From the IMG/VR virus record IMGVR_UViG_3300018405_000050, positions 1 through 29,774 of that record: a stretch of DNA of 29,774 nucleotides; one strand, written 5' to 3'. The position numbers and the translations under genes are program-made. Positions 6,137 to 29,774 of this stretch are shown piece after piece (within the stretch, counting starts at the first letter, position 1; each line of letters begins with the position of its first letter). The notes beneath the pieces were generated by a model, which saw only the letters and a list, made by a program, of their open reading frames with translations, ran no database searches and had not been told where the DNA came from. The DNA is from a virus.

Positions 6137-6198
6137 TCTTTCACCCGGCGACCCCATAAGGGGCGTCTTGCAACCCCAAGCCAAAGAGGTAATCCAAC

Positions 6199-6648
6199 AT
6201 GGCTACGATTAACCCGAAGAACGGCGACCTCACGGCTGGCGTCGCCGGTCAGTCTTCCGACATCATCAACGCCAGCCCCGATCCGCTGGTCACTGGCGAC
6301 GCCCCGGCGCTCTACACCGAGCCGCTTCCCGTCGCTGCTGACATGGTGCTCGCGGCTCGCGAAGTCGTCGGCTTCGATGCCAACGACAACATCATCCCGG
6401 CCGTTCTGGACTCCGTCACCCCGGCGAACAGCGTGCAGGCCATCGGCTTCGTGATGTATGCCATCGACACGACCGGCGAAGCCGACGGTGCGGTGGAAGT
6501 CGAAGTCGTTCGCGGCGGCGTCTTCAACCCCGACCTGCTGGTCTGGGAAGATGGCTTCGCCACCGATGCCGACCGGCGTGCTGCTTTCCGTGGGGCTCCG
6601 AGCCCGACGGCGATCATCATCCGCAAACCCACCACCATGACGGTCTGA
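6199..6648 (+). CDS. Head decoration protein (lambda gpD family)
   Basis: Trimeric capsid-stabilising protein that binds the outside of the expanded head. The C-terminal part contains the family's GGVFNPDLLVWEDG stretch. The whole 149 aa protein is beta-rich with little charge, like gpD (110 aa) and its longer relatives. It sits between the protease-scaffold gene and the major capsid gene, exactly as gpD does. AGAGG at 6185-6189 is the ribosome site. A 62-base spacer precedes it, a departure from the tight overlaps seen in the packaging genes; I see no convincing promoter there. Codon use is strongly GC-biased, consistent with high expression. Confidence 0.9.
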   Translation: MATINPKNGDLTAGVAGQSSDIINASPDPLVTGDAPALYTEPLPVAADMVLAAREVVGFDANDNIIPAVLDSVTPANSVQAIGFVMYAIDTTGEADGAVEVEVVRGGVFNPDLLVWEDGFATDADRRAAFRGAPSPTAIIIRKPTTMTV

Positions 6649-6689
6649 TCCAGACCTGAAGCGAGAGACAGAAAGGAAAGAGGACCGAC

Positions 6690-11312: not shown

Positions 11313-14300
11313 ATGGCGCGGAAAGATGTTGACCTAGTAATCCGCGCAAAGGATGAAGCTGAGAACGTCGTAAAGAGCATCACCAAGGCGCTCAACGGCT
11401 TCATCGACGCACAGAACGGGCTCCAAGAAAACGCTGAAGGGACCGAGGGCGCGCTGCGTGGCCTCGGTTCCGCAGTGGCCTCTCTCGACAAAGCGATCTC
11501 CGGTCTGGACGTGGGCAACAAGCTCTCGGCCGACATGGACAAGGCGGCCGGTGCGGTCGCCCGGCTCGAAAAGCAGGTCGCCTCGTCGCAGGGTGAGTTC
11601 GCCCAGCTCGAACGCCGGGTGAAGAACGCCGAGACCACGACCGGCCGATACCAGCAGAAGCTCGATGGCGCACGCGCTGCGCAGGAGCGGCAAACTGCTG
11701 CCGTTGCCAAGGCCAAGAAGGAGAGCCGCGATCTGGCGGCCGCCTACGAGCAGTCGGTCGGCGCGGTCGGCAAGCTGACCACCCGGTTCGACCAGCTCCC
11801 GGCGCGGATCATCAAGACGCAGGACGCCTTCGACAAAGCCTCGGCTCGGGTGGCCGATCTCCGTGAGCAGATGGCCGGGACGACCGAGCCCACGAAGACG
11901 CTGGTGGGTCAGCTCGCAGCGGCCGAGCGCAACCTGTCTTCCCAGACCGAGAAGCTGGCGAAGCTCCGGGGCGAATACGCTGCCGTGGAGAGCGAGCTGC
12001 GCGCGGCCGGTTCGGCCGTAACCCTGTTCGCCGGTCAATCGGCCAACGCGGCAGCGGACCTCGCCCGGCAGGAAACGATCCTCGGCAAGATCACCGGCAA
12101 TGTGTCCGATCTGGGCGTCCGCGCCCGCACGGCGGCAGGCGATCAAGGCCGCCTTGAAAGCGCGCTCGACAAGACGAGCAACGCGCTCGCCCGCCAGCAG
12201 GAACAGCTCGGCCGGGCCGAAGGGGCCTATGTCGATCTGGCGGAAGCTGCGGGCCGGTATGACGCCGCGCTCGCCTCGACCGCGAATGTCTCCCGGGGCA
12301 ACCTCGACCAGCAGCTCGTGGATCAGGGGATCGCGGTCAGCAAGGCCCGAGAAGAGCTTCAGCGGCTTCAGCGCGTCTCTGACGGCTACGCGGCCACGAT
12401 GCTGAAGGCCGGGCCGCCCACCCGGGAGGTCTCGCAGCGAATCCAGTTCCTCGGCCAGCGCGCAGACGAGGCGCAGTTCAAGCTCATGGCGCAGGAGGAA
12501 GCCCTTCAGCAGATGGGCCAAGCCTACCGTGACGTGACCTCGGACATGACCTCCGTGACGCAGGGCCAAGCCCGGTTCATCGCCGCGCAGAACCAGCTCG
12601 GCGTCGCGATGCAGTCCGTTGCGAACGACGGCTTCCGCGAGCGGCAGGCGATCCGTGATGTCCACAAGGAGGCGTCCACGGCGGCGGGCTCCGTCACGCG
12701 CCTCGCCAACGCCACGCGCGGTCAGGCCGACGGTGCGGCCCGTGGGGCCACGGAGACGGGCCGTCTGGCGCAAGCCTACCGGCAGCTCTACGGCGACACC
12801 CGGAAGTCCCTGTCCTACACGCAGCGCCTCCGGGGCGAAGTCCTCTCGCTGATCGCGGCCTACGGTGGCTTCTACGGCGTGGTGCAGCTCCTTGGCGCGG
12901 TCGTTGACGCCTATCAGGTGCTCGAAGCGGCGCAGTCTCGCCTCGGCGTGGCGCTTGGCGGCGATGTCGAACAGACTGCGCAGGAGATGGACTTCCTGCG
13001 GCGCACGGCCAACCGGCTCGGCGTGGACCTCGGGACTCTGGCGACCGAGTATTCCAAGTTTGCCATCGCCACGCAGGGGACGGCGCTGGCCGGGGAGAAC
13101 ACCCGGAAAATCTTCATCGCCGTGGCGGAAGCCGCTCGGGTGAACCGCTCGACCACGGCCGAGATGCAGGGCGTGTTCACGGCCCTGACCCAGATCGTGT
13201 CGAAGGGCGCGGTCCAGATGGAAGAGCTGAGGCAGCAGCTCGGGGATCGCTTGCCCGGGGCTCTGCAAATCATGGCTGACGGCCTCGGCGTGACCACCGC
13301 CGAGCTTATCAAGATGATGGAAGCCGGGGAGGTCACGGCCGAGGCGCTGGTGCCCTTCTCCGAGGAACTGTCCCGTCGGTTCGGCCCGGGTCTCGGTGAG
13401 GCGCTGGCCTCCACGTCGGTTGCGCTCGGCCGCCTGAAGAACGCGGCCTTCCAAGCCCTCGTCCAGTTCGGGGAAGGCGGGTTCATCCAAGCCTTCACCA
13501 AGCTCGCGAACGATCTGACCGATCTTCTGAAGAGCGCCGACTTCGGGGCCTTCCTCGGGCGGGCGTCCGCCGCCTTCGCGGTGCTGATCGACACGCTCGG
13601 CGTGCTGGTGGACAACTTCGATCTGGTGGTCGCTGCTGGTGCCGCGTTCCTCGGGCTGAAGCTGACCCCGTTCATCGTGGTCCTCGCTGCCGAGATCGGG
13701 AAGCTGCCGGGCCTGCTGGCTGCCGGGGCTGGGGCCTTGCGCGGCTTCGCTGCTGGCTCCACCGCTGCCGCTGCCGGGGCGACCACGGCTGCTGCCGGGC
13801 TGGGCCGTCTGACCATCGCTATTCGCGCGCTCATGTCCTCCACGGGCATCGGCCTGCTGGTCACGGCGGTATCCGTCGGGATCGGGCTCTGGGCGACCAA
13901 GGCCGATGAGGCCAGCGAAGCTCTCAACGAGCACAAGAAGATGGTTGATAAGGTCCGGGACGCCTACGACGCCGTGGGCGGTTCGGTCGAAGAGTGGCGC
14001 AACACGCTCAACGATCTGACGGCCACCGAGGCGCAGGCGAACCTCAACCGGATCAAGTCGGCCGTGAAGTCGCTCGAAGATACCCTCGACGCCACGGCGA
14101 GCGGCACCGAGGACTTCTGGACCAACTTCTTCGGCTACAACCTGCGCGCCTCGGTTCGCAAGGTTCCGGGTGAGCTGCGCGACGAGATCGAGCGCCTGTC
14201 CACCGCCTTCTCGAACGGCGACATGACGGCCGAAGAGTTCTACGACTCGGTGGACAGCGCCGTGTCCAGCTTGGGCGACGGCAAGGAGGAATCCACCGAG

Positions 14301-16376
14301 TTCGCGGAGCGGGTCATCCAAGCGGCTCGTGCCCTCGAAGACGCCCGGGACTCGGCCGACGACGCCCGCAACATCGTCCGCGCGCTTGGCGACGACATGG
14401 ACGACGCGCAAGACGCCTTCGACGATCTGGGCAACTCGGCCGCCGACGCAGGCCGGAGCCTCGAAGACATCGCGGAAGAGAAGGCCGACAAGTTCAAGGC
14501 GGCGATGGACACGATGGCCGAGGGCGTCGCCTCGGTGAACCGCGAGCTGGAATACATCGCGGCCTCGGAAGCCCTCAACAAGCTCGGCCGGGAAGCCATC
14601 GAGAACGCCTCGAACCTCGACGAGCTGGCGGCCGCGCTGGCGCGGATCAAGGAGGCGCAGGACGCCCTCGACCAAGAGTATGTCTCGGACGCTCTCTCCG
14701 GCTCGCTGGTGGACCGGATCATCGGCGTGGAGAGCGGGGGCGATCCGGGGGCGCGCAACCCCAACTCGACGGCCACCGGCCTCGGGCAGTTCATCGAGTC
14801 CACGTGGCTCCGCATGTTCAAGCAGTATTTCCCGGATCGCGCGGCCAGCATGTCCGACGCGGCGATCTTGGCGCTGCGCGAGCAAGCGGACATCTCGCGG
14901 CAGATGGTTGAGCTGTATCTGCGGGAGAACGCGGAGCACCTGCGCCGGGCCGGGCAGGCCGTCACCGACGCCAACCTCTACCTCTCGCACTTCCTCGGGC
15001 CGGGCGGCGCGGCCGCGCTTCTGGGGTCCGCCCCCGGCACGCTCGCGAACGACGTGCTCTCGGCCGGGCAGATCAACGCCAACGCCTCGATCCTCGACGG
15101 GAAGACCCGGGAGGAAGTGATCGCGTGGGCGCAGCGCAAGGTCGGCATCTCCGAGCAAGAGCTGGCCGTGGCCGAGCAGCTTCAGGACTCCGAGCGCGAC
15201 CGCGCCGAGGAAGCCCGCAAAGAGGCCGAGCGCCGGGCTGAAGAGGCCGCCAAGCAGCGCGAGGAAACCGCACAGCGGATCGACGACAACGACTTCGAGA
15301 TCGAGCAGCAGCGGCTTCGCAATGCCGAACAGGAGAAGGAAGCCGCGATCCGGGCCGCGATCCGCGACGCGCGAGCTGACGACCCGAACATCACCGAGGA
15401 AGAGATCGCCCGCATCCGCGAGCAGGTCGGGGCGCTCTACGACCTCGAACACGCACAGGAGCGGGCGAACGCGGCCAAGGAGCGGGCGAAGGAAGCCGAA
15501 GAGCAGGTGAACCTCCTGCTGGCGGAACGGAACGCGCTCAACGACCAGTTCGAGATCGCGAAGCAGACGGGTGACACGGAGCTTCAGGAAGAGCTTCGCC
15601 AGAAGATGACCGAGATCAACGCAGAGCTGATCGCGGCAATCGAGCACGCCCGGGAACTCTGGGGCGTCGTGGGCGGTCCCGAGGCGGACACGGCCATCGC
15701 GAAGCTGGATGCGGCCAAGGCGTCGGCCGAGCAGTTCGGGAACGCGGCCGTCAAGAACTACCTCGACTGGACTCGGGTGAAAGACCTGCTGGTCAACGGC
15801 CTGACCAACGCCTTCGACAAGTTCGCGCAGGCGGTTGCGAACGGCGAGGACGCGGGCAAGGCAGCGCGCGACGCCTTCCTTCAGTTCGCCTCGGACTTCC
15901 TGCTTCAGATCGCCAAGATGATCGTGCAGCAGGCGATCTTCAACGCGCTTCAGGCGGCCTTCGGCGGGACGCCCTTCGGGGCCTTGATCGGCTTCGGCGC
16001 GGGGCACACTGGCGGCACGGTCGGCAGCTCTCGCGTGGGCTCGGGGAACCAGACGCGGCAGGTAAACCCGGCAGTCTTTGCGGGGGCCATGCGCTACCAC
16101 GTCGGCGGCCTGATCGGCCTGCGGCCGGGGGAGGTTCCGATCATCGCGAAGCAAGGCGAAGAGATGCTGACCCGGGACGACCCGCGCCACGTCCTCAACG
16201 GCGGTCTGGCAGGCGGCCAAGCGGCCCCGGCCAAGGCGGGCAACACGCGCGTCGTGAACGCCTTCGACGGCACGTCCTTCCTCGAAGAAGCCCTGAAGAC
16301 TCGGGCGGGCGAGGAAGTCATTCTCAACTACGTGTCGGCAAACCGCTCGGCCGTGCGCTCGGCTCTGGGGGTCTGA
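11313..16376 (+). CDS. Tape measure protein with an embedded lytic-transglycosylase-like domain
   Basis: Sets tail length and is ejected with DNA into the cell envelope. Order along 1687 aa: coiled-coil N-terminus (1-420); tape-measure core at about 535-720, with the pattern FLRRTANRLGVD, GQ-free LATEYSKFAIATQGT, then QMEELRQQLGDRLPGALQ; hydrophobic, alanine/glycine-rich segments likely to enter membrane (770-860); an SLT/lysozyme-like domain at about 1130-1240 with likely catalytic Glu1140 in GVESGGDPGARN and TATGLGQFIESTW; charged coiled coil (1260-1450); and a C-terminus with GGLIGLRPGEVPIIAKQGE, common in lambda-type tape measures. The ribosome site AAGGAG (11301-11306) overlaps the chaperone stop. 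Lambda gpH is 853 aa; at about 0.15 nm per residue this protein implies a tail near 250 nm. The muramidase-type domain probably helps cross peptidoglycan. Confidence 0.93.
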   Translation: MARKDVDLVIRAKDEAENVVKSITKALNGFIDAQNGLQENAEGTEGALRGLGSAVASLDKAISGLDVGNKLSADMDKAAGAVARLEKQVASSQGEFAQLERRVKNAETTTGRYQQKLDGARAAQERQTAAVAKAKKESRDLAAAYEQSVGAVGKLTTRFDQLPARIIKTQDAFDKASARVADLREQMAGTTEPTKTLVGQLAAAERNLSSQTEKLAKLRGEYAAVESELRAAGSAVTLFAGQSANAAADLARQETILGKITGNVSDLGVRARTAAGDQGRLESALDKTSNALARQQEQLGRAEGAYVDLAEAAGRYDAALASTANVSRGNLDQQLVDQGIAVSKAREELQRLQRVSDGYAATMLKAGPPTREVSQRIQFLGQRADEAQFKLMAQEEALQQMGQAYRDVTSDMTSVTQGQARFIAAQNQLGVAMQSVANDGFRERQAIRDVHKEASTAAGSVTRLANATRGQADGAARGATETGRLAQAYRQLYGDTRKSLSYTQRLRGEVLSLIAAYGGFYGVVQLLGAVVDAYQVLEAAQSRLGVALGGDVEQTAQEMDFLRRTANRLGVDLGTLATEYSKFAIATQGTALAGENTRKIFIAVAEAARVNRSTTAEMQGVFTALTQIVSKGAVQMEELRQQLGDRLPGALQIMADGLGVTTAELIKMMEAGEVTAEALVPFSEELSRRFGPGLGEALASTSVALGRLKNAAFQALVQFGEGGFIQAFTKLANDLTDLLKSADFGAFLGRASAAFAVLIDTLGVLVDNFDLVVAAGAAFLGLKLTPFIVVLAAEIGKLPGLLAAGAGALRGFAAGSTAAAAGATTAAAGLGRLTIAIRALMSSTGIGLLVTAVSVGIGLWATKADEASEALNEHKKMVDKVRDAYDAVGGSVEEWRNTLNDLTATEAQANLNRIKSAVKSLEDTLDATASGTEDFWTNFFGYNLRASVRKVPGELRDEIERLSTAFSNGDMTAEEFYDSVDSAVSSLGDGKEESTEFAERVIQAARALEDARDSADDARNIVRALGDDMDDAQDAFDDLGNSAADAGRSLEDIAEEKADKFKAAMDTMAEGVASVNRELEYIAASEALNKLGREAIENASNLDELAAALARIKEAQDALDQEYVSDALSGSLVDRIIGVESGGDPGARNPNSTATGLGQFIESTWLRMFKQYFPDRAASMSDAAILALREQADISRQMVELYLRENAEHLRRAGQAVTDANLYLSHFLGPGGAAALLGSAPGTLANDVLSAGQINANASILDGKTREEVIAWAQRKVGISEQELAVAEQLQDSERDRAEEARKEAERRAEEAAKQREETAQRIDDNDFEIEQQRLRNAEQEKEAAIRAAIRDARADDPNITEEEIARIREQVGALYDLEHAQERANAAKERAKEAEEQVNLLLAERNALNDQFEIAKQTGDTELQEELRQKMTEINAELIAAIEHARELWGVVGGPEADTAIAKLDAAKASAEQFGNAAVKNYLDWTRVKDLLVNGLTNAFDKFAQAVANGEDAGKAARDAFLQFASDFLLQIAKMIVQQAIFNALQAAFGGTPFGALIGFGAGHTGGTVGSSRVGSGNQTRQVNPAVFAGAMRYHVGGLIGLRPGEVPIIAKQGEEMLTRDDPRHVLNGGLAGGQAAPAKAGNTRVVNAFDGTSFLEEALKTRAGEEVILNYVSANRSAVRSALGV

Positions 16377-16377
16377 C

Positions 16378-18168
16378 ATGGCAAAGAAGGCCATCTTCAT
16401 CGCACTGGACAACTCCGGCTCGATGGCGGGGGAAAAGGCGGCCAACCTCCGCATGGCGATGATCCGGCTCGTCGAGAGTTTTTCGGACTTCATCGACACG
16501 CCCGGGAACTCGCTCGACCTCGGCATCTGCATCTGGGGCGACACGGCGGACACGCAGGTCTGGCGCGGCGTGTCCCGGGCGGGGGTCAGCGGGGCCATCG
16601 CGTCGCTCGACCGGCTCAACGGGCAGGGCGGCGGGACGAACTTCGCGGCTTTCGCTCCGTCGGCCTTGACCTTCTTCCAAGAGACGATTGGCGAGACCTA
16701 CGCCGACCGGACCATGATCTTCCTGACGGATGGAGACCCCACCCCTCCGTCCACGGCGGACACGGCGGCCGCGACGCTGGCGGACGTGCTGGACCAGTCC
16801 ACCGCGCCCTTCACCACGCTCAACGGCACGGAGGTCAACTGCTACGCCGCGAACATCGACTCGGGCACGACCATCCACACGGCGAAGCTCGATAACACGG
16901 GCGCGGACGGGGTGCCGGTCGTGGCCGGGAACGCCCGCGCGCTGACGGCCTACCTGAAGGCTGTGACCCTGCCCGTGCAGGAGCACCGGCTTTGGGGGTG
17001 GCCGATCCAGTGGGCGCAGGGCTACGACGAAGAGATCGCCTTTCGCACCGAGATCATCGTCAGCCGGGACGGCACGGAGCAGCGGATCGGCCAGCGGATC
17101 AACCCCCGGGTCAACTACGACTTCGAGTCCGTGCTGCGCGGGCGCAACCTTCGGACGGCGCTGGCCCGGGTCGTGGACAAGCAGGGCGGCCAGTTCTATG
17201 TGCCGCACCCGCGCGAGCCCGCAGTTCTGGCGGCCGACATGCCCAGCGTCGCACTGTCCGCGCAGATCGCCGGGGCGGCCCCGAGCTGGCTGGTTCCCGG
17301 CGTCTACGCGATCTTCGAGAGCCCGACCGGCGATGCCTCGCTGGGCGTGGTAATCAGCGTCTCGGGAAGCACCGTGAATTTGGCGGCTCCTATGGGCCGC
17401 GCGTTCCCGGCCGGGTCCAAGTTCCGCCTCGGCGTCGAAGGCCGGTTCGACGGTGCGACGCAGTTCAACCTCCTGACGAGCGACAAGGCGCGCGTGCAGA
17501 CGCAGTTCACCGGAGACCCGGTGGACACCCCGCACCCGACTTTCGGCGCGGCCCCCGTGACGCTGGAAGGCACGGAGCTGTTCGACATGCGACCGAACTG
17601 GCGGCAGGCCGGGGAGATCAGCGTGGAGCAGGCCGTGGACATTCTGGACCTCGAACGCGGGGCCATCGACGCGATCTTCCCCATCACGTTCTCGCCGCGC
17701 ACCCAGAAGCACACCTTCACAGCCCGGTCGGTGGCAGAGCTTGACCGCATCCTCGGGCTGTTCTACCGCGCCTCGGGCCGCCGCAAACGGTTCTTCATGC
17801 CGCTCTGGGCCGACGAGATCAGGCCGCTCGGTGTGACCTACTCGGGGCAGACCGGCATCACCATTCTCGGGTCTGATTTTGCCGAGACCTACGGGGGCCT
17901 GAGCACCTACCGGCGCGTCATCATCCGCCGCCGGGCACCGCTTGCCGACCTCATTCTCGCCGTGGATTCCGTGACGCTGGACTCCTCGAACAACTCGGTC
18001 ATCAACTTGACCGATCCCGCACCTGACGACATCATCGAGCAAGAGATCACGAGCATGAACTGGATCATGCCTGTCCGGTTCGCGAGCGATAGGCTGACGG
18101 TGAGCTGGCTCACTGACGCGGTTGCCGAGATCACCCTGACCGTCACGACCTTGGAGGGCGAAGCATGA
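16378..18168 (+). CDS. Distal-tail-like protein with N-terminal von Willebrand A domain
   Basis: Residues 1-200 form a vWA domain with a complete metal-ion-dependent adhesion site: D11-x-S13-x-S15 in LDNSGSM, Thr87 in GGGTNF and Asp118 in FLTDGDPT. After it, from about 205, comes a tail-tip segment: LWGWPIQWAQGYDEEIAFRT, RDGTEQRIGQRINPRV, and a second similar element (VAELDRILGLFYRASGRRKR, FFMPLW). This paired pattern occurs in phage distal-tail or DUF2460-like minor tail proteins that form the ring joining tube to tip. Its place directly after the tape measure, one base after its stop (TGACATG), supports that role. The vWA domain is paralogous to the one in the tip protein at 19464-22493. 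The tail location is well supported by synteny; what the vWA domain binds is unknown. Confidence 0.82.
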   Translation: MAKKAIFIALDNSGSMAGEKAANLRMAMIRLVESFSDFIDTPGNSLDLGICIWGDTADTQVWRGVSRAGVSGAIASLDRLNGQGGGTNFAAFAPSALTFFQETIGETYADRTMIFLTDGDPTPPSTADTAAATLADVLDQSTAPFTTLNGTEVNCYAANIDSGTTIHTAKLDNTGADGVPVVAGNARALTAYLKAVTLPVQEHRLWGWPIQWAQGYDEEIAFRTEIIVSRDGTEQRIGQRINPRVNYDFESVLRGRNLRTALARVVDKQGGQFYVPHPREPAVLAADMPSVALSAQIAGAAPSWLVPGVYAIFESPTGDASLGVVISVSGSTVNLAAPMGRAFPAGSKFRLGVEGRFDGATQFNLLTSDKARVQTQFTGDPVDTPHPTFGAAPVTLEGTELFDMRPNWRQAGEISVEQAVDILDLERGAIDAIFPITFSPRTQKHTFTARSVAELDRILGLFYRASGRRKRFFMPLWADEIRPLGVTYSGQTGITILGSDFAETYGGLSTYRRVIIRRRAPLADLILAVDSVTLDSSNNSVINLTDPAPDDIIEQEITSMNWIMPVRFASDRLTVSWLTDAVAEITLTVTTLEGEA

Positions 18169-19256: not shown

Positions 19257-19471
19257 CGACGGCGCAGGACACCGGGGACTTCATCGTCACCATTGCGGAC
19301 GTTCGCAAGAGCGGACACTGCGCCTCCGGGGCGCGCGAGTTTTTTGAGAGCAACGACCTCGACTTCCGGGACTTCCTGAAGAACGGGGTGAAGGCGAGCG
19401 TCCTGCTGGCGACCGGCGATGCCCGGGCCGTGCAGGTCGTGAACCGCACGAGGGAGCGCCGTTATGGGTAA
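19253..19471 (+). CDS. Small conserved tail-tip-locus protein, unknown function
   Basis: A 72 aa protein without predicted membrane segment or signal. The order of motifs (IVTIADVRKSGHCASGAREFF, then NDLDFRDFLKNGVKASVLLATGDA) resembles short proteins seen next to tip genes in many phages, with a pattern of LCxxGxRxWFxxxxLDWxxFlxxGi. It may be a chaperone or structural tip component; no function is known to me. ATG 19253 forms an ATGA overlap with the preceding gene, so an upstream in-frame start at 19217 is unlikely. The 3' end overlaps the tip protein gene by eight bases. Confidence 0.75.
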   Translation: MTTAQDTGDFIVTIADVRKSGHCASGAREFFESNDLDFRDFLKNGVKASVLLATGDARAVQVVNRTRERRYG

Positions 19472-22400
19472 GGGTGGCAGCAAGCCTAAGATGCGAGTGA
19501 CGGAGTATTTCTGCTCCGTCCAATATGGCCTCTGCCAAGGCCCGGTCGATTCGCTCAACCGCATCCGCATCAACGAGAAGATCGCGTGGGAGGGCCGGGT
19601 CGGCTCGGAGTCGATCTTCGAGATCAACAAGCAGAAGCTCTACGGCGGCATCAAGAAAGAGGGCGGCGTGCAGGGCTACGTCGTCTGGCAGCCGGGCAGC
19701 TTCACGCAATTCTGCTCGGAGACCGTCGCGGCCAAGCTGGGGCGCACCCCGGCAAACGCCCCCGCGTATCGCGGGCTGGCGAACGTCATGATGACCGGGA
19801 AGCCCAGCCTGAAGGGGGAGGATGCCCCGATTGAAGAGGCCAACGACGGCGGCATCCAAGACAGCCCCATCAGCAACTTCTTCCAGCTCTTGATCGGCAG
19901 CCTGTTCGCAGGCGTCGGCAAGGAGAACGGCAAGGACTCGGCCGTGGGGAACCGGAACGGGTTCTATTGGGGTGCGAACCAGCCCTACATCTGGCCGTGC
20001 GCCTTCCACCTGACGCGCATCCCGCGTGGCTGGTATCCCGAGAAGGCGGCCATCGTCTCCGGCACGACCACGCCGCGCTCGGTCCACTTCGCCATCGACA
20101 ACTCCGGCTCCATGACGGCCGTGCGACGGAACACGGTCAAGGCCGCCTTCGCGACGCTCTTCTCGCAGCTCCGGCAGCAGATCGACGAGTTCGGCTTGCA
20201 GATCAACCTCGGGATCAACCTCTGGGGCGGGACGACCAACGAGCGCATCTGGAACAACGCCACGAGCGCGAACATCGACGCGGCCGAGACCTTCATCCAG
20301 AACGGCCTCAACGCAGGCGCAGGCGGCACGGACTTCACGCAGGCGGCGAACGGCGCGGTGGGGTTCTTCGATCAGTCGCTCGCGCAGACCCTCGACCGCC
20401 GCATCATGTTCCTCATCACCGACGGGGAGCCCACCGACGGCTACCCCGTGTCGGCCGCGCAGTCGATCATGTCGGACCTGTTGGATCGGGGGTCGGGCAG
20501 CTACTCCACGGCCGCCGGGACAGCGGTGGACTGCTACGCCGTGAACATCGAGCTTGAAGATACGCAGTATTCCAGCGCCCTCGACAACACGACCGGCACG
20601 GACAAGAGCCTGACGACCGGCGGCGCGGTCCCGGTTATCGGGGAGGGGGACTCCACGGTTCTCGCGGACCTCATCATGGACGCCCTTGGTAACGGGAACC
20701 CGCCCTCGGCCAACCCGGCCCACATGATCTACGAGGCCCTGACGGATCGCTCGTGGGGCATGGGTGCGAACTCGGCCGCGCTGGACGACACCAGCTTCCG
20801 CGCCTCGGCCGACATCTTTTTCAACGAGAGCTTCGGCCTCTCGATGATCTGGACGCAGCAACAGACCATCCAGTCCTTCGTGCAGGAAATCCTCGACCAC
20901 GTGGAAGCCAACCTCTACGTGGACCCGAGCACCGGGAAGTTCGTGCTGAAGCCGATCCGGGACGACTATGACCCGGAAACATTGGAGGTCTTCGACGAGT
21001 CGAGCTGCACCATCCGGGACTTCCAGCGCCGCGCGCCCACGGAGATCGTCAACGAGATCAACCTGACGTGGACCAACCCGGACACCGAGGAAGAAGAGGT
21101 CATCACGCAGCAGGACATCGGTGGCATCGTCGTGAACAACGGTGAGATCATCTCCGACAACCGGAACTACTACGGCATCCGGGACCGCAGGCTTGCGGCC
21201 ACCGTTCTTGCGCGCGATCTGGCGGCCGTGACGGCCCCTCTCGCAACGGCAGAGATCGAGATCGACCGCTCGGCTTGGTCCTACGCCCCGGGCTCCGTGC
21301 TGAAGCTCTCTTCGGAAGAGCACGACGCGGAAGAGCTGGTCATGCGGGTAGCCAAGATCAACTACGGCAAGCCGGGGGACTCCAAGATCGTCGCCTCGCT
21401 GACGCAGGACATCTTCAGCTTCGCGCGGCCGCAGGTGGTCTTGCCCCCCTCGACCGAGCTAGACAGCGGCGGCAAGGAGCCCACCCTGATCGAATACGTC
21501 GAGTTCATGACCTTCAACTACTTCTTCACGGTCAATCTCGTGCCGCCGGAGACCACGGCGAACGTGGACTACCCGGACGTGTTCGTCGGCATCCTCGCGT
21601 CGTCCCTCAACACCGATGTCGCGTCCATCGACGTGCTCGGGGAGGTTCTGGACGCGGCGGGCAACACCTATACCGAGCCGACCGGGACCATCATGCCTGT
21701 CTCTCGCGGCCAGCTCGCAGTGGCTTTCGAGCAAGAAGCCGAGACCCTGACGCCGGGTTTCAGCTCGCTCACGGTAGGCTCCGGGCCGACCCCCGGTGGC
21801 TTCGCCCTGATCGGGCTGGAAGACGGGACCGAGCAGGGCCGAGAGCTGGTCATGTTCGTGGAGAACGACGGGTCGAACTGGACCATCAAGCGGGGCATCC
21901 TCGACACGGTTCCGCGCGAGTGGCCCATCGGCACGCCGATCCGCTTCTTCGGCCCGGGGGACTTCATCACCGACGCCGAGCTGGAAACGGCCTTCGCGGA
22001 GCGGGACTACAAGCTCGCCATGCAGACGACCCTCGGCGCGTTCCCGGAGAGCTTGGCCCAGACGGAGAGCTACACCCCGAGCGAGCGCCCCTACCTCCCG
22101 GCTCGCCCGGCGAACGTCAAGGTCGCAGGGGTCGGCTTCGGGGACGTGGACGCCAGCGACCTCCCGGACGTTCCTGTGACGTGGGCAAACCGAAACCGCC
22201 TCACGGAAGATTCGCAGGTTCTCGCTTGGGATGACCCGGGAGTGACCCCGGAGCCCGGCCAGCTCACCAAGATCACCATCCTCGACGCGGACACGCGCGA
22301 GATCGTCAACGAGATCGCGGACCTGCCCGACGAAAGCTATACGCTACCCAAGGCTTCCTTTGGGACCGCAACCCGGGCTATTGTCCGGGTGACATCGACC

Positions 22401-22493
22401 CGGGGCGGCTATGAATCGCTTCAGGGCCACGAAATCGGAATCACCATCGCTTCTGGCTACGGCTTCGGCTACGGCCTGTCCTACGGAGAATAA
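19464..22493 (+). CDS. Tail tip (gpJ-like) protein with an inserted von Willebrand A domain
   Basis: Central tail tip protein likely to contact the host receptor. Residues 1-200 and 415-720 match tip proteins of lambda-type siphophages: VTEYFCSVQYGLCQGPVDSLNRI near the N-terminus; NPAHMIYEALTDRSWGMG at 417; and APTEIVNEINLTWTNPDTEE. A vWA domain is inserted between them at about 207-410, with intact MIDAS residues D212-x-S214-x-S216 (IDNSGSM), Thr289 (GGTDF) and Asp320 (ITDGEPT). The C-terminal region (about 720-1009) is beta-rich and ends in aromatic/glycine repeats (YGFGYGLSYGE). The length, 1009 aa, is near lambda gpJ (1132). AGGGAG at 19451-19456 is the ribosome site. Its vWA is clearly paralogous to that in the distal-tail-like gene (both keep an LGI-x-x-WG and a CYA-x-NI segment). 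Confidence 0.88.
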   Translation: MGKGGSKPKMRVTEYFCSVQYGLCQGPVDSLNRIRINEKIAWEGRVGSESIFEINKQKLYGGIKKEGGVQGYVVWQPGSFTQFCSETVAAKLGRTPANAPAYRGLANVMMTGKPSLKGEDAPIEEANDGGIQDSPISNFFQLLIGSLFAGVGKENGKDSAVGNRNGFYWGANQPYIWPCAFHLTRIPRGWYPEKAAIVSGTTTPRSVHFAIDNSGSMTAVRRNTVKAAFATLFSQLRQQIDEFGLQINLGINLWGGTTNERIWNNATSANIDAAETFIQNGLNAGAGGTDFTQAANGAVGFFDQSLAQTLDRRIMFLITDGEPTDGYPVSAAQSIMSDLLDRGSGSYSTAAGTAVDCYAVNIELEDTQYSSALDNTTGTDKSLTTGGAVPVIGEGDSTVLADLIMDALGNGNPPSANPAHMIYEALTDRSWGMGANSAALDDTSFRASADIFFNESFGLSMIWTQQQTIQSFVQEILDHVEANLYVDPSTGKFVLKPIRDDYDPETLEVFDESSCTIRDFQRRAPTEIVNEINLTWTNPDTEEEEVITQQDIGGIVVNNGEIISDNRNYYGIRDRRLAATVLARDLAAVTAPLATAEIEIDRSAWSYAPGSVLKLSSEEHDAEELVMRVAKINYGKPGDSKIVASLTQDIFSFARPQVVLPPSTELDSGGKEPTLIEYVEFMTFNYFFTVNLVPPETTANVDYPDVFVGILASSLNTDVASIDVLGEVLDAAGNTYTEPTGTIMPVSRGQLAVAFEQEAETLTPGFSSLTVGSGPTPGGFALIGLEDGTEQGRELVMFVENDGSNWTIKRGILDTVPREWPIGTPIRFFGPGDFITDAELETAFAERDYKLAMQTTLGAFPESLAQTESYTPSERPYLPARPANVKVAGVGFGDVDASDLPDVPVTWANRNRLTEDSQVLAWDDPGVTPEPGQLTKITILDADTREIVNEIADLPDESYTLPKASFGTATRAIVRVTSTRGGYESLQGHEIGITIASGYGFGYGLSYGE

Positions 22494-22495
22494 TC

Positions 22496-25156
22496 ATGGT
22501 CATGCGACAAACCCCCGGCCTCGGCCTCAACGCTTTCTGGGACTTGGGGGCGGATGGCTGGAACACCGGCATGGACACGAACCTGCGGCTGCTCTCGGCG
22601 GTCGTGGGTGCCCGGGTGCAGTCCCGGGTAACGGCCCTCCCGGCGTCCCCGGCAGTCGGCTCCATCTACATCGTGCCTGCATCGGACGCGACGAACGGGA
22701 ACAAGCTGGCGGTCTGGGACGGCCCGGACGGTGCGCGGCAGTGGGTCTACCTGACCCCGCAGGTCGGGTGGCACTTCTTCGTCGTGGACGAGGGCGTGAA
22801 CGTCCAGTGGACCGGCGCGTCGTGGGTTGAGTTCGCTGGCGGCGGCGGTGGTGGGGGCGCCTCGATCTACGGGTCGCAAATCCTGATCCAGCTCGCCCAG
22901 AGCGCCGGGCAGACCATTGACTCGACGACCGCGACTCTGGCCTTCGGGGACGTGATCTCCGACGATAACGAGTATTTCAACGCGGCCGACAACACGATCC
23001 GCATCCCGGCGGCGCAGGAGGGCCGCACGGCCATCTTCGTCGCCAACACGCGGCACACGACTGACGGCACGGGCGCGGTGGACACCACGCTCGAACGCTC
23101 CATCGACGGGGGCTCTACGTGGGAGCCCATCGCCAGCTCTTCGGACGACGAGGACTACTTCGGCATCACGACCATGACCGCGCTCGTCACCTTCCTCGGC
23201 GGGGACTGGTATCGGCTGCGCCACACGACCAGCAGCTCGAAGACGACGAGTGGCGACCAGCAGACCTCGCTTGCGGTAACGACCGTCGGCGCGGGGCAGA
23301 TCGGCCGGATCGTCCGCACGACCTCCAACCGGGTCGTGACCAACAGCCGCTTCGAGTCTGGCGACTTCACCGACTGGACCACCAACACGGCATCCGGGAC
23401 GCTGAAGGTCTACACGCCGCCGGATCGGGAGGCGGACCACGTGCTCCACCCGGACGGCTACGCCTACATGGGCCTGTCGGGGGATTCCGGCGGCCCTTGG
23501 TGGATTGAGCATGTCGTCGATCTCCCGAACGACCCCAGCAGCATCACGGTCTATTGGGACCAGCACACGCGCTTTGTCGAAGACATGATCCGGCTGGAAG
23601 TCTTCTACCTCGACGCCAGCGATACGGTGATCGGCACCTATGTCGGGGGCAACCGTCTCAACTCGGCCATCCAACTCTGGGAGACCTTCGCGGACACGGC
23701 GGCCAACGTGCCGAACGGAACGACCAAGGCCCGGATTCGCCTGAATACGGTCGTGACCGGCGGCTCCCAGCAGATCAACCTCACGAATATGCGGGTCGTC
23801 ACCACGACCCTCGGCGTGTCCGGGATGCTGCCGGGCTCGGTCTACGCCTACCTCCCCGACCTCGCGGGCAACGCGAACAAGGTGCTCCGCGTGACGGAGA
23901 CCGGGGACGACGTGGAGTGGGGCGGCAGCCCGATCCGGTTCCGTGCCGGGTCGCTCGACGAGCCGGAGGTCATGGACCTTCAGTTCCTCGGCACGGCCTT
24001 CAACGCGGTCAAGACCGGCGACACGATCCAGCTCTCGTTCACGGGCGGCCTCGCGCTGCACGGGGCGGCCGGAGAGGTCAGCGGCGGCGTGACCAAGCTC
24101 ACGATCACCGGGGACGGTGCGTCGATCACGTCTCCCGTTCCGGGGGAGATCGAGATCGCCATCCCGGGCGGCGGCGCAGCGACTCCGGCGGCCACGGCAA
24201 TCGAAGAGATCGACGGCATCGACGCGGTTCGCTCCGGCATGTCGATGGACCAGAACGGGCAGCCGCTCGTCTGGGACCACGCCGCGAACGCCTTTGTCCC
24301 GCTCCCGGCAGGCTTCAGCCCGATTGCCTATGGCGGCGGCGCGGACCTTCTCTGGTCGGGCGATCTCGCCGGGGTGCGCAACGTGATCCTGACCGACGAG
24401 GACCACGGGCTCTACCAGTATGACGAGCTGCACTTCGTCCTGCGCAACGCCAACGACCACGCCGATGTCGCGATCTCTACGGACGGCGGCAGCACGTGGT
24501 CCACGGTCTTCTATGCGTGGGCTGGCGTGGGTGGCACGGGCGAAGGGACGGCCAGCTCCGATGCTTTCCGGCTTGGCGGCTACAACTCGGACGTGGACCT
24601 TCAGATCGCCGTCGGCGTCTTGCGGTTCATGAGCGAGGCCGGGATGCCGACCACGTGGGACATGTTCGGGTCGGTCCCTTCGGCCAGCGGGGATATTCAC
24701 TATCGGGGCTTCTCGGCTGCGGCAGCGGCCCACAACACGGTCATCTTCCAGCGGGACAGCGCAGGCAACTTCACGGGCGGCCAGCTCTTCATCATGGGCG
24801 TCAAGAAGACCCGGCAGCCGGTGGACATCTCGGGCCGTGTGGAGAACGGCGGCGTGCTGGCGGCGGATCAGGAAGTCCTCTTCCACGAGACGCTGGGGCT
24901 GAAGTTCGATCAGGGCTCCCCGGTCGGCCGCATCCGCGTCAACCCGGCCACGGCCGCACCCACGACCTTCGCGTTCCGGTCCTTCGACGGGACGGAGCTG
25001 TTCACCGCCACCATCGCAGCCGGGGAGACCTCCGTGGAGATCAGCCTGCCGTCGCCCGTGGTCGTGACCGACGCGCTCCGGGTCGTGGCTCCGTCGAGCC
25101 CTGACGCCAACGTGACGGACGTTTACGTGGCCCTGCGCGGGGAGGCCGCCCGATGA
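22496..25156 (+). CDS. Tail fibre with DUF2793-like N-terminal domain
   Basis: Large probable receptor-binding fibre (886 aa). Residues 1-115 follow the DUF2793 layout: LGLNAFWDLGADGWN, the LPASPAVGSIYIVPA turn, and GWHFFVVDEGVNVQWTGASW. A run of glycines (near residue 120) links it to a repeat-rich beta stretch. Residues of about 280-430 look like a jelly-roll sugar-binding module: VTNSRFESGDFTDWTTN with later GYAYMGLSGDSGGPWW, an arrangement typical of CBM4/9-like domains. The rest is beta-rich with several S/T/G-rich blocks. The ATG follows GGAGA (22485-22489) by six bases. It directly follows the tip protein and shares the ATGA junction with the subtilase gene. Fibre function is inferred; the specific sugar is unknown. 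Confidence 0.8.
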   Translation: MVMRQTPGLGLNAFWDLGADGWNTGMDTNLRLLSAVVGARVQSRVTALPASPAVGSIYIVPASDATNGNKLAVWDGPDGARQWVYLTPQVGWHFFVVDEGVNVQWTGASWVEFAGGGGGGGASIYGSQILIQLAQSAGQTIDSTTATLAFGDVISDDNEYFNAADNTIRIPAAQEGRTAIFVANTRHTTDGTGAVDTTLERSIDGGSTWEPIASSSDDEDYFGITTMTALVTFLGGDWYRLRHTTSSSKTTSGDQQTSLAVTTVGAGQIGRIVRTTSNRVVTNSRFESGDFTDWTTNTASGTLKVYTPPDREADHVLHPDGYAYMGLSGDSGGPWWIEHVVDLPNDPSSITVYWDQHTRFVEDMIRLEVFYLDASDTVIGTYVGGNRLNSAIQLWETFADTAANVPNGTTKARIRLNTVVTGGSQQINLTNMRVVTTTLGVSGMLPGSVYAYLPDLAGNANKVLRVTETGDDVEWGGSPIRFRAGSLDEPEVMDLQFLGTAFNAVKTGDTIQLSFTGGLALHGAAGEVSGGVTKLTITGDGASITSPVPGEIEIAIPGGGAATPAATAIEEIDGIDAVRSGMSMDQNGQPLVWDHAANAFVPLPAGFSPIAYGGGADLLWSGDLAGVRNVILTDEDHGLYQYDELHFVLRNANDHADVAISTDGGSTWSTVFYAWAGVGGTGEGTASSDAFRLGGYNSDVDLQIAVGVLRFMSEAGMPTTWDMFGSVPSASGDIHYRGFSAAAAAHNTVIFQRDSAGNFTGGQLFIMGVKKTRQPVDISGRVENGGVLAADQEVLFHETLGLKFDQGSPVGRIRVNPATAAPTTFAFRSFDGTELFTATIAAGETSVEISLPSPVVVTDALRVVAPSSPDANVTDVYVALRGEAAR

Positions 25157-27669
25157 CCAGCCAGATCATTGTCACCGTCATCGACCCGAAGTTCCGAGGC
25201 CCTGTCATGGAAGCCTTGGAGCCCTTCGGGGACATGGTGCCCTCGGAGAGCCTGCCGCGCGTCTTTACGGCCCATGTGGCGGAAGAGGTCGAGGCCGACT
25301 TCATGCTCTCCGTGGCGAACGACCACCGCATCTCTGGCGCGGCGGATGGCGCAGGCGTCGTGGCCCCTATGGGCTACGGCGAGTCCTTCATCTACGAGCC
25401 GCGCATGTGGAACGAGAAGCACGGCGCGCTGCGGCTGAAGGCGACGCAAGACCCGAAGAGCGGGAACTTCAATCCGTGGTGGCTTCAGCCCGACTTCTTC
25501 AAGTGGCGGTTTGACAGCGACCGGCTTGGCGACGGCGTGATTATTGCCATCGTGGACGGCGGGATTCGCTGGGGGCACCCGGAGTTCCGCAAGAACCCCG
25601 GCCGGGTCACGCGCATCCACAACTTCTCGTCCATTGACTTCGGGGCGTCCAACCACGGCACGACCTGCGCGGCTCTGGCGGCGGGTGATAACCTCGGGAT
25701 CGCACCGGAGGCCGAGCTTTGGGACGTGAAGGTTTTTAGCTCTGCCGGAGGCTCCACCACCAACGAGGCGATCACGGCCGGTCTGGAAACGCTCGCGGCT
25801 CGGGCGGTCGATCCGGCCTACAACCCGGACGGCAAGTTCGTCGTCGCTAACCTCTCCTTCGGCTCGACGGGCACGAACTACGCCAACCCCTACGGCTCGA
25901 TCATCCAAGACCTCATGGACATCGGCGTGCTGGTGTTCATTGCGGCCGGGAACGATAGCCAGAACCTCGACACGACGTTCGACGCTTGGCCCGCTGAAGC
26001 CTCGGACTATGCGGTCGGCGCGATCCACTACGACGGCCGCCGTGCCGCGTTCTCGAACTACGGCAGCCGGGTCCGATTCTACGGATTCGGCCACCGCGTC
26101 GTGACCGTCACCGACGGGGCGAAGTATGGGGAGGGCTCCGGCACGAGCTATGCCACACCCTACCTTTGCGGCTGCCTCGCCACGTGGCTCCCCGGGCGGT
26201 GGGTGCCGCAGGACTTCGAGCAGGTCCGCACGCTCCTGTCCGACTACATGGCCTTCTGCTCCGAGGGCATCTACGGCGAGTCCGTCCGGTCGGTTTTCGG
26301 GGACGACAAGATCGAGGGGGTCGTGATCGCGCGGGCCTCCTATTTCCCCATCGTCCCGGGTGACGTTATCGTGCCGCAGCTCAACGCCGTCGCACGCTTC
26401 GGCACGGCCGAGTATGGCGTCCTCGGGTGGAAGAGCCGGGCGACCCCGATCATCGGCGGGTCGAGCCACGGCGTCACGGGGCAGAGCGCCAAAGGGGCCG
26501 TGTTCTTCCGTGAGCCCTTCGGCTTCCCGAACGGCGGGCCGTGGATGGACCCCGCTTATATCCCGACCGGGTGGGGGATCGACAATGACCAGATCAAGAA
26601 TCGCTCCGGCGCTGCGGGGACCGGCATGTTCGCCGTGAGCAGCCAGAACCTCGCGCTCGGGGAGTATTGGGAGATCGAGCCCCGGGGTGCGGTGGCGGGC
26701 ATGTCCGTGGGCATCACGAAGGTCTCGAACCTCGGCAACTACAACGAGGCCACGACCGGAATGGGCGCGGCTGGCGTCGAGTGGTTCTCTGACGGCTCGC
26801 TCACGGCCGACGGCGTGGCCCAGACGGCCACGATCAGCTATGTCGAGGGCGACCGCCTCATGCTGGCCTATGACAACGCGACCGGCGAGTTCTGGTGCGG
26901 CAAGAACGGCGTCTGGGCCGCAGAGCCGGGCGTAGACGCGGCCCTCGCAACGACGGCAACCGGAGCGTCCCGGGCGGCCGTGAGCGTCCCTGACGGGTCG
27001 CAGGCGCAGCTCTACGGAGAAAGCACGCACGTCCTCTATACGGTCGCGGGGTTCACCCCGTTCGATCTCGGCGCGGAGATCGAGTGGAAGATCGACCCGG
27101 CGCTCATCTCGACGGGCCACACCCTTTCGGAAAACGACACGCGGCTCACCAACACCAGCGGCGGCTCGGACTACCGGCCCGTGGCCCCCTCGGATCGAGT
27201 CATCTCGGCAGCGCAGGCAGGCATGGTCTATTGGGAGATGGCGCTTCTCGCAGGCCCCAGCTCTTACACGGGCTACCTCGGGATTGTCGGCACGGCCTTC
27301 CTCGCGGCTAACCCGCCGCCCAACAACGTGACCAACCCGGTCTACGCGGGAATGTATAACTGGCGCGGCAACGGGACGATCTGGGGGCCGACCGGGAGCC
27401 AAGCGATCTCTGGCGTCCCGACCTACGGTATCGGGGACCGCCTCATGTTCTGCTACGAGCCGACGACCGGGAAGTTCTGGTTCGGCAAGAACGGGACGTG
27501 GGACCGCAACCCGGAGACGGAAGCCCCTCGGGTGACGCAGCCTATCGAGGACATGCGGCCCTTTATCCAGACGCGCGACACGGGCGTTTCCGCGAAGCTC
27601 ATTTCCCTGTCCTCGGACTTCCTCTATTCTATCCCCAGCGGGGCCGTCGCGCTCGGCACTCTCGCCTGA
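25153..27669 (+). CDS. Subtilisin-like serine protease (S8) with C-terminal SPRY-like repeats
   Basis: A complete subtilase in the tail fibre block. Catalytic triad: Asp135 in IVDGGI, His168 in NHGTTCAALAAG and Ser332 in GTSYATP, with oxyanion Asn267 in FIAAGND. Residues 1-68 (IIVTVIDPKFRGPVMEALEP, then RVFTAHVAEEVEADFM) have the beta-alpha-beta pattern of an I9-type propeptide, suggesting autoproteolytic maturation. Two repeats follow at about 474-630 and 643-838, each with the SPRY/ConA-like signature: GDRLMLAYDNATGEFWCGKNG at 566-586 and GDRLMFCYEPTTGKFWFGKNG at 761-781. SPRY domains are protein-binding modules. There is no signal peptide, so virion assembly rather than secretion is expected. 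GGAGG at 25141-25145 and an ATGA overlap support the start. Virion incorporation and substrate are inference. Confidence 0.9.
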   Translation: MTSQIIVTVIDPKFRGPVMEALEPFGDMVPSESLPRVFTAHVAEEVEADFMLSVANDHRISGAADGAGVVAPMGYGESFIYEPRMWNEKHGALRLKATQDPKSGNFNPWWLQPDFFKWRFDSDRLGDGVIIAIVDGGIRWGHPEFRKNPGRVTRIHNFSSIDFGASNHGTTCAALAAGDNLGIAPEAELWDVKVFSSAGGSTTNEAITAGLETLAARAVDPAYNPDGKFVVANLSFGSTGTNYANPYGSIIQDLMDIGVLVFIAAGNDSQNLDTTFDAWPAEASDYAVGAIHYDGRRAAFSNYGSRVRFYGFGHRVVTVTDGAKYGEGSGTSYATPYLCGCLATWLPGRWVPQDFEQVRTLLSDYMAFCSEGIYGESVRSVFGDDKIEGVVIARASYFPIVPGDVIVPQLNAVARFGTAEYGVLGWKSRATPIIGGSSHGVTGQSAKGAVFFREPFGFPNGGPWMDPAYIPTGWGIDNDQIKNRSGAAGTGMFAVSSQNLALGEYWEIEPRGAVAGMSVGITKVSNLGNYNEATTGMGAAGVEWFSDGSLTADGVAQTATISYVEGDRLMLAYDNATGEFWCGKNGVWAAEPGVDAALATTATGASRAAVSVPDGSQAQLYGESTHVLYTVAGFTPFDLGAEIEWKIDPALISTGHTLSENDTRLTNTSGGSDYRPVAPSDRVISAAQAGMVYWEMALLAGPSSYTGYLGIVGTAFLAANPPPNNVTNPVYAGMYNWRGNGTIWGPTGSQAISGVPTYGIGDRLMFCYEPTTGKFWFGKNGTWDRNPETEAPRVTQPIEDMRPFIQTRDTGVSAKLISLSSDFLYSIPSGAVALGTLA

Positions 27670-27682
27670 CGAAAGGACCACC

Positions 27683-28633
27683 ATGACCGACTACCTTATC
27701 ACCAACGACCCGTTCGACCTCGGGGGGCTCTACGACAACACGGCGGGCCTCTTCGACCCGGACTTCGCGGACCACGCCATCGCTCTGTCCGAGGACATCA
27801 TGCACGGGGTCGCGCTTCCCGAGACGGATTCCATCTGGATCGCCTTCGATGTCTACTTCCCGGCCATGACCACGGCCGAAGACGGCTACTGCTGGCAGGT
27901 GTTCTCGCAGGACAACGTGGTCATCGGCAATGTGACCTTGACCGACGGTGTGTTCCGGTGGCGCTCGACCTCGGCCGCCGACGAGTTCATCACGTTTGGC
28001 GTCCCGCAGGGGCAAGTCGTGCGGATCGACATTCACATCGAGACGAACATCGGAGCCAACCCGAACCAACACCGGGAGACCGTCTACGTGAACGGGTCGC
28101 TCTCCATCAAGACCCAGATCAACGCCAATGGCGGTGGCGCTCCGGCCCTCTTCCGGTTCGGGGGGCTGGACTACATCAACGGGGCGAACTGCTGGGTCTC
28201 GAACATTCGGATCAGCGACGAGAACACCGTCGGCACGAAGTTCAAGGTGCTGCCGCCGACCGCGCAGGGGAACTACGACGAGTTCACTGGCGGCGCGGAA
28301 GAGCTGGGCGACTACCTCTCGACGACCGTGGCCTACGCCACCGCAGGCGGCCAGAGGACGAGCGGAACGCTCACCCCGGGTGCCCAACCCCCCGGGTCGC
28401 TCACGAAAGTCTTCTTGTCCTCTACGACGCGCTCCACGGGGCCGGGGGCAGACCCCAGCCAGATCGGGCTCTTTGCGCGAATCGGCGGCGTGGACTACGA
28501 CGGGGCGCTCTACACGCCCGGCGCGGCGATCCTGCCCATCGTGGAGGAATACGACGTGAACCCGGCGACCGGGGAAGACTGGACGTGGGCGGACCTCGCC
28601 ACGCTCGAAGTTGGCCTCCGGGCCGTAACCTGA
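27683..28633 (+). CDS. Fibre-associated or tail protein with lectin-like N-terminus
   Basis: A 316 aa protein, unrecognised by exact family. Residues 1-190 look like a beta-sandwich, lectin- or laminin-G-like (SIWIAFDVYFPAM, RETVYVNGSLSIKTQ, NCWVSNIRISDE). Residues of about 190-316 follow a widespread phage structural pattern: FKVLPPTAQGNYDEFT, a serine/threonine-rich beta segment, and the ending VNPATGEDWTWADLATLEVGLRAV. That closing module is usual in accessory fibre or surface proteins. AAAGGA (27672-27677) is the ribosome site. It lies between the subtilase and the endolysin genes, closing the fibre block. A capsid or tail surface decoration is the other possibility. Confidence 0.7.
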   Translation: MTDYLITNDPFDLGGLYDNTAGLFDPDFADHAIALSEDIMHGVALPETDSIWIAFDVYFPAMTTAEDGYCWQVFSQDNVVIGNVTLTDGVFRWRSTSAADEFITFGVPQGQVVRIDIHIETNIGANPNQHRETVYVNGSLSIKTQINANGGGAPALFRFGGLDYINGANCWVSNIRISDENTVGTKFKVLPPTAQGNYDEFTGGAEELGDYLSTTVAYATAGGQRTSGTLTPGAQPPGSLTKVFLSSTTRSTGPGADPSQIGLFARIGGVDYDGALYTPGAAILPIVEEYDVNPATGEDWTWADLATLEVGLRAVT

Positions 28634-28644
28634 CGGAGAAGACC

Positions 28645-29774
28645 ATGACCAAGTTCACGACCTTCCAAGGGGCCGCTCGACGGCTCGATGACATCGACCT
28701 CCCGATGCTGGGCTACCGGATCGGGGTAGGCGAGGACGAGGTTCACGCCCTCATGGACGTGGAGGCCCGCAGCTCGGGATACGACCGGCACGGCCGCCCG
28801 GCCATGCTGTTCGAGCCGCACGTCTTCTACCGCAACCTGACCGGCGAGAAGCGCGACGCGGCCGTGGCTGCCGGGCTGGCCTACCGGGAGTGGAAGCGGG
28901 ACTATCCCTCGGACTCCTACCCGCGTCTGAAGCAGGCGATGGAGATCGACGAGACTGCGGCGCTGAAGTCCGCCTCGTGGGGCCTCGGCCAAATCCTCGG
29001 GGAGAACCACCTGTCCGCCGGATACGCCACGCCGCAGGAGATGGTCTCCGCGTTCATGGAGGACGAGGAAGAGCATCTGGAAGCCATGATCCGGTTCATC
29101 ACGAACGCCGGGATCGCGGACGACCTGCGGGCGCATCGTTGGACGACCGTGGCGCGGGCCTACAACGGCCCCGGCTACGCCGCGCACGGCTACCACACCC
29201 GGCTCGAAGCGGCCTACCGGAAGTGGGCCAAGATCAAGGATACCGAGTGGTCGCCCGCCCGGGAGCCGCAGGTGCCGGTCAACGGCGAAGAGCTGAAGTC
29301 GGTGCAGCGCCGCCTCCGCGCGCTGGGCTACACGGAAGTCGGCCAGCCTGACGGCAAGTGGGGCACGCGGACTCGCGCGGCCGTGCTGGCCTTCCGGGCC
29401 GACCGGGGGCTGCCGATCTACGTGGGCATCGACGACGAGATGATGGCCGAGCTGCTGCGGTCCTCGCCCCGGGAAGTCGCGGCCGAACGCCGCACGGCCA
29501 CGACCGAAGACCTCCGGCAAGGCGGCTCCAAGACCATCGCGGCCACGGACAAGGCCAACGGCGCGGCGGCCGTCGTGGGCGGCACTGGCGCGGTCGGTGT
29601 GGGCCTTCAGGCGCTCGATGCGCTCGGCGGGCAGCTCGACACGGCGCAGGGCCTTCTCGACAAGATCGAGCCGCTGAAGGAAGCCCTCGTCGCGGCCGGG
29701 CCGTGGATCATGGGCGGCGTCGCGGCCTACCTGATCTACCAGATGGTCGTGGTCCAGCGCGCCCGGGTGGACGA
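28645..29774 (+). CDS. Endolysin, N-acetylmuramidase (DUF3380) with PG-binding domain and C-terminal membrane segment (partial)
   Basis: Cell-wall hydrolase for lysis, running off the window end without a stop (376 codons visible). Residues 1-205 match DUF3380 muramidases: the likely catalytic Glu40 in DVEARSSGYD, then RPAMLFEPHVFYR, and ASWGLGQILGENH. Residues 213-272 are a PG_binding_1 domain (LKSVQRRLRALGYTEVGQ, DGKWGTRTRAAVLAFRADRGL). Two hydrophobic stretches follow: a weaker one at about 305-325 and a clear membrane helix at 353-371 (PWIMGGVAAYLIYQMVVVQ). A C-terminal anchor is seen in some alphaproteobacterial phage muramidases. GGAG at 28635-28638 sits six bases before ATG. No separate holin gene is visible; it may lie downstream. 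Confidence 0.88.
   Translation, partial: MTKFTTFQGAARRLDDIDLPMLGYRIGVGEDEVHALMDVEARSSGYDRHGRPAMLFEPHVFYRNLTGEKRDAAVAAGLAYREWKRDYPSDSYPRLKQAMEIDETAALKSASWGLGQILGENHLSAGYATPQEMVSAFMEDEEEHLEAMIRFITNAGIADDLRAHRWTTVARAYNGPGYAAHGYHTRLEAAYRKWAKIKDTEWSPAREPQVPVNGEELKSVQRRLRALGYTEVGQPDGKWGTRTRAAVLAFRADRGLPIYVGIDDEMMAELLRSSPREVAAERRTATTEDLRQGGSKTIAATDKANGAAAVVGGTGAVGVGLQALDALGGQLDTAQGLLDKIEPLKEALVAAGPWIMGGVAAYLIYQMVVVQRARVD

Follow-up and report, generated by a model that had tools for sequence, protein, structure and literature searches.

Why would a phage place a complete subtilisin-like protease directly behind a tail-fiber gene, and where would such an enzyme act? The question is raised by virus record IMGVR_UViG_3300018405_000050, of which positions 1 to 29,774 were analyzed (the window), a linear sequence with the gene order of a phage: terminase, portal, S49 prohead protease, tape measure, tail-tip genes and endolysin. 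Known tail enzymes mostly cleave sugars or peptidoglycan, and in the literature searched we found no description of a tail-mounted S8 protease. An earlier annotation of the locus made from its letters alone (the sequence-only reading) had proposed a tail that binds and cuts a host surface protein.

The Protease Gene and Its Neighborhood

Sequence comparisons confirmed the 838-residue protein (Table 1) as an S8 subtilase with a complete predicted catalytic set. Pfam Peptidase_S8 (PF00082) covers residues 126-344 (E=1.5e-22), the top relative in the PDB is proteinase K (E=6.6e-23) and the top phage family is phrog_3677, "protease" (8e-36). The Asp, His and Ser motifs that define family S8, together with the oxyanion Asn, were recovered by Pfam, PDB profile and alignment, and the four residues singled out in the sequence-only reading align with the catalytic positions of other S8 proteins, in a comparison that took in all other phage S8 enzymes whose aligned region was complete. 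Genome scans with the whole protease returned no bacterial or prophage relatives, and an alignment scan gave distant S8 proteins and nothing closer.

Table 1. Features of the protease locus (positions in the window; residues are those of the protease).
Feature	Position	Strand	Basis
Upstream tail-fiber gene, DUF2793 N-terminus	22496..25156	+	DUF2793 and tail-fiber PHROG matches; ATGA overlap with protease gene
S8 subtilase gene, SPRY repeats at C-terminus	25153..27669	+	838 aa, free of internal stops; complete frame kept in L009, 61% identity
Probable I9-like (ferredoxin-like) propeptide, residues 1-72	25153..25368	+	Predicted topology; similar N-terminus in Mallos and V45iii
Junction to mature enzyme, putative processing site	25369..25509	+	NPWW.. 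resembles proteinase K mature start APWG..
S8 catalytic domain, residues 120-375	25510..26277	+	PF00082 1.5e-22; 71% identity, approximate dN/dS 0.24 vs L009
Catalytic Asp135	25555..25557	+	Alignment with other S8 proteins
Catalytic His168	25654..25656	+	Alignment with other S8 proteins
Oxyanion-hole Asn267	25951..25953	+	Alignment with other S8 proteins
Catalytic Ser332 (GTSYATP)	26146..26148	+	Alignment with other S8 proteins
Linker, residues 376-445	26278..26487	+	71% identical in L009; no family match, no PHROG match
SPRY repeat 1, residues 446-627	26488..27033	+	AF2 model and Foldseek
SPRY repeat 2, residues 628-838	27034..27666	+	PF00622 E=0.0007; 29% identical to repeat 1; approximate dN/dS 0.64
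Downstream gene, phrog_6368, no assigned function	27683..28633	+	PHROG match
Endolysin: N-acetylmuramidase and peptidoglycan-binding domain	28645..29774, continues past window end	+	PF11860 2e-49; PF01471 7e-9

The gene had been described as locked between two fiber genes. Both the ATGA overlap upstream and the short gap downstream (13 bases, containing AAAGGA) are as claimed, and the upstream neighbor is a DUF2793 fiber gene; a fiber flank can be claimed on that side only, because the downstream gene belongs to phrog_6368, whose relatives are not consistently near structural genes. They adjoin the lysin in Rhodobacter phage RcXuper, and in the N4-like roseophage DSS3phi2 they lie in a non-structural region. 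The family occurs in very dissimilar phages of roseobacter and Rhodobacter, a distribution that suggests an alphaproteobacterial host for this phage.

Two tail proteins encoded farther upstream contain von Willebrand A domains with MIDAS-like DxSGS motifs, about 35% alike. One (residues about 4-190 of the 16378-18168 protein) is fused to a DUF2460-type protein and the other (residues about 205-410 of the 19464-22493 protein) is inserted in a tail-tip protein. Similar insertions occur in Xanthomonas phage Mallos and in L011 and L012, two phages with a similar fiber N-terminus; a third such phage, L010, is without the tip insertion.

A Probable Propeptide and No Signal Peptide

The sequence-only reading missed what is probably an N-terminal propeptide. 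In an AlphaFold model, residues 1-60 form a strand-helix-strand-strand-helix arrangement (pLDDT about 55-85) at the place where I9 propeptides sit; the mean pLDDT of this full-length model is 33 and we used it for N-terminal topology only. Pfam gave no I9 match in this region and the PDB profile search no propeptide match, so the assignment is an inference from topology and from the relatives in Table 1. The matches that this profile search gave for the N-terminal domain were all at chance level and were discarded, among them the Milano short tail fiber (E=0.01 for the whole sequence, 10 for the best single stretch). The PWG motif of the junction also occurs in the S8 enzyme of Mallos, and relatives share 66% identity over residues 76-119.

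A simple hydropathy scan detected no hydrophobic N-terminus of signal-peptide strength in the protease and did detect one in the control protein. By this measure the protease lacks the export signal of a secreted bacterial subtilase.

The C-Terminal SPRY Repeats

Are the two C-terminal domains truly SPRY-like, as had been claimed? The Pfam match in the full protease is weak (E=0.0014, below the Pfam cut-off). Despite this, the claim holds, because the two halves of residues 446-838 are homologous to each other (29% identity, E=1e-13) and a fold search with the first of them found SPRY proteins only: with a model of repeat 1 built by AF2 from seven related domains (pLDDT 61), 50 of the 50 top Foldseek matches in the PDB were SPRY (best E=2.6e-5). 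The predicted structure thus has the B30.2/SPRY beta-sandwich fold. The best viral match of the same model was a tail fiber of Burkholderia phage AH2, and the phage SPRY relatives include tail fiber proteins of other phages. The occurrence of SPRY lectin domains on phage tail fibers has been noted before (PMC7824862). The SPRY part also shares the motif GDxLxxAYDxxTGKFWFGKN with large fiber-like proteins in other phage contigs, which carry laminin-G or discoidin-type domains. A tblastn search with the SPRY half gave no match in cultured phages.

Conservation in Close Relatives

One possibility was that the protease is a stray or transient insertion, which its absence from all related phages would have indicated. 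Our search of related phages for the same gene order led us to reject this: contig L009 has the same protease gene, 61% identical, in the same place behind a 79%-identical fiber gene. Conservation is highest in the catalytic domain (71% identity). The L009 fiber gene is truncated by the contig end. The start of the same gene is also present in L006. Approximate dN/dS values against L009, for which synonymous sites are near saturation, were lowest in the catalytic domain (0.24), followed by SPRY 1 (0.32), the propeptide (0.62) and SPRY 2 (0.64), so that purifying selection is strongest on the enzyme itself. By these values the gene is kept and its product looks active, with a distal end that changes fast; such a pattern is consistent with an enzyme whose target-binding end varies.

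More distant phages with a similar fiber N-terminus (L010, L011 and L012) have no S8 gene, nor does Elanor, a Xanthomonas phage related to Mallos, in the Mallos slot; the S8 gene is therefore optional. In L010, the last protein of the fiber block (13170-14903), standing where the window phage has its protease, resembles by eye a polysaccharide deacetylase.

S8 Enzymes Beside Fiber Genes in Other Phages

At least two phage groups that are unrelated to each other have S8 enzymes beside tail-fiber genes. In Xanthomonas phage Mallos (URA07153.1) and Variovorax phage V45iii, an S8 gene directly follows a DUF2793 fiber gene with a 4-bp overlap. The enzymes of these two phages are 68% identical to each other, and the window shows the same succession of DUF2793 fiber, 4-bp overlap and S8 gene even though its S8 sequence is only about 30% like theirs. 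The sequence-only reading overlooked that Mallos, a cultured phage, already has an annotated tail-slot S8. Further viral scans with the Mallos-type enzyme gave no additional matches.

Contig L049 and the jumbo phages Phosso and Atu_ph07 have an S8 gene encoding 1250-1320 residues, and a large gene, fiber-type in Phosso, begins no more than about 6 bases behind it. The C-terminus of the Phosso enzyme matches a virion structural family, and no lysis gene is annotated near the S8 gene in Phosso or Atu_ph07. The paper on Atu_ph07 reports 131 virion proteins detected by MS, mostly encoded in CDS 31-76, 170-215 and 284-329 (PMC6102473). By our count along the record from gp288, gp292, gp293 and gp327, the S8 enzyme is gp329, the last gene of the third cluster; all three clusters, as given there, span exactly 46 genes, so this position at a cluster edge is no proof that gp329 was detected.

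The pairing of S8 and fiber genes is thus conserved in separate phage lineages. In a tree of S8 domains the three tail-slot lineages grouped weakly (support 60/49) and did not resolve as one clade, a result that fits single and repeated acquisition alike. The tail linkage is confined to some S8 lineages, as can be seen from the contexts of Bacillus phage subtilases and from contig L029, in which a distant S8 protein (5914-7032) lies two genes past an amidase, an arrangement suggestive of a lysis cassette with an S8 member. Matches filed under Acinetobacter "phage" MD-2021a were set aside because the adjacent genes look bacterial; in L022 (CAKLQH020000012), bacterial housekeeping genes flank the S8 gene and the record looks like a bacterial contig.

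What Is the Protease For?

The best reading of these sequences, in which we have moderate confidence, is that the window encodes a zymogen protease located on or next to the tail and aimed by its SPRY repeats at a protein of the host or of the lysate. The protein would be an active zymogen of the subtilisin/proteinase K type, a member of the tail-fiber module that is co-produced with the fiber by means of the 4-bp overlap. We infer its activation, its attachment to the virion and its substrate as follows: the N-terminal propeptide would keep the enzyme inactive until folding and self-cleavage, the enzyme would reach the cell exterior on or beside the tail rather than through secretion, the two SPRY domains would tether it to a protein or glycan of the target surface, and it may then trim surface proteins that obstruct or constitute the receptor. 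This reading is supported by an S8 domain whose catalytic residues are intact, by the SPRY fold, by the pairing with a fiber gene and by the pattern of selection. We favor tail linkage because fiber coupling occurs in separate lineages, the binding domains are of fiber type, a conserved enzyme is joined to a variable tip and there is no secretion signal. Against mounting on the tail, the 838-residue protease has no recognizable virion anchor, and the Mallos and V45iii enzymes are without any binding domain. The optional presence of the S8 gene and the weak grouping of the tail-slot enzymes in the tree also count against this reading.

Could the enzyme instead be a late soluble protein that is freed at lysis and is not part of the virion, cutting surface or debris proteins, aiding virion escape or harming competitors while its SPRY repeats bind debris or surfaces? 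No other rival is as strong: the gene stands immediately ahead of lysis genes (one gene before the endolysin, with a similar placement in Mallos), and the Mallos form, like that of V45iii, has no anchoring module. A propeptide architecture is, moreover, typical of a free enzyme, and the L029 enzyme keeps company with an amidase. However, the overlap is with the fiber gene and not with lysis genes, repeats of tail-fiber type are fused to the enzyme, and the jumbo-phage S8 gene heads a fiber block away from any annotated lysis gene; we consider release at lysis unlikely, if quite conceivable. What the sequence-only reading said of the tail is upheld in part: the fiber-S8 pairs and the SPRY relatives favor a tail-linked enzyme that acts externally, the closeness of the endolysin fits lysis as well, and the S-layer or outer-membrane targets it named are guesses.

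Proteases commonly serve maturation in phages, and coupling to a fiber gene would suit an enzyme that cleaves the adjoining fiber or another tail protein during assembly. A maturation role has been argued for the conserved structural peptidases of jumbo phages (PMC7824862). The fibers of this phage and of Mallos and V45iii, however, are clearly similar only in their N-terminal 120-280 residues, so no common substrate region is evident; the S8 gene is optional among phages that share the fiber N-terminus, and maturation would leave the fast-evolving SPRY repeats unexplained. To us this makes a maturation protease a rather poor prospect. We attach very little probability to superinfection exclusion or competitor interference, an alternative named by the sequence-only reading in which the enzyme would destroy the tail proteins of rival phages, or the phage receptor on cells that are infected or close by. 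It suits a surface-acting protease, but the hydropathy scan gave no sign that the enzyme could be exported to act on the infected cell before it lyses.

Extending the preferred tail-linked reading, we tentatively propose, at somewhat under even confidence, that several unrelated tailed phages have subtilase zymogens mounted on the tail, each type with its own targeting module (SPRY, Ig-like or none), and that these enzymes digest surface proteins of the host during entry. As far as the literature searched shows, both the S8-SPRY fusion and the recurrence of tail-slot S8 enzymes across phage groups are new. If the tail-linked reading is true, protein barriers too are breached by some phages, and targeted proteases could be drawn from such enzymes. 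A direct test is feasible, since cultured phages (Mallos, V45iii, Atu_ph07 and Phosso) share the gene arrangement.

Comparison with Known Systems

Proteinase K and subtilisin (S8A) have the same order of probable propeptide and catalytic core as the 838-residue protease. They are secreted by means of a signal peptide, whereas the phage enzyme has none and carries SPRY repeats instead. The Mallos and V45iii enzymes share with it an intact triad, a propeptide-like N-terminus and the fiber slot with its 4-bp overlap; they differ in their length of about 400 residues, in the lack of SPRY and in sequence (about 30% identity), and in Mallos lysis genes follow directly, whereas in the window the phrog_6368 gene intervenes before the endolysin. 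The jumbo-phage enzymes of Phosso (XYS97278.1) and Atu_ph07 (AUZ95088.1) likewise combine S8 with an N-terminal extension and C-terminal beta-rich modules and stand first in a fiber block, but at about 1250-1290 residues they have He_PIG Ig-like domains where the protease of the window has SPRY. The intracellular-type subtilases of Bacillus phages (SP-15, BSP12), included in phrog_3677, belong to the same catalytic domain family; those Bacillus phage genes that were examined have non-structural or unassigned genes as neighbors, in contrast to the fiber-adjacent gene described here. Tail-fiber proteins with SPRY, such as those of Burkholderia phage AH2 and of contigs L033 and L036, are alike in the SPRY fold, to which the two contigs add the motif GDxLxxAYDxxTGKFWFGKNxxW, and differ in that the protease domain is absent. 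Tail-mounted subtilase zymogens, if they exist as proposed, would be the protein-cutting counterpart of the tail depolymerases.
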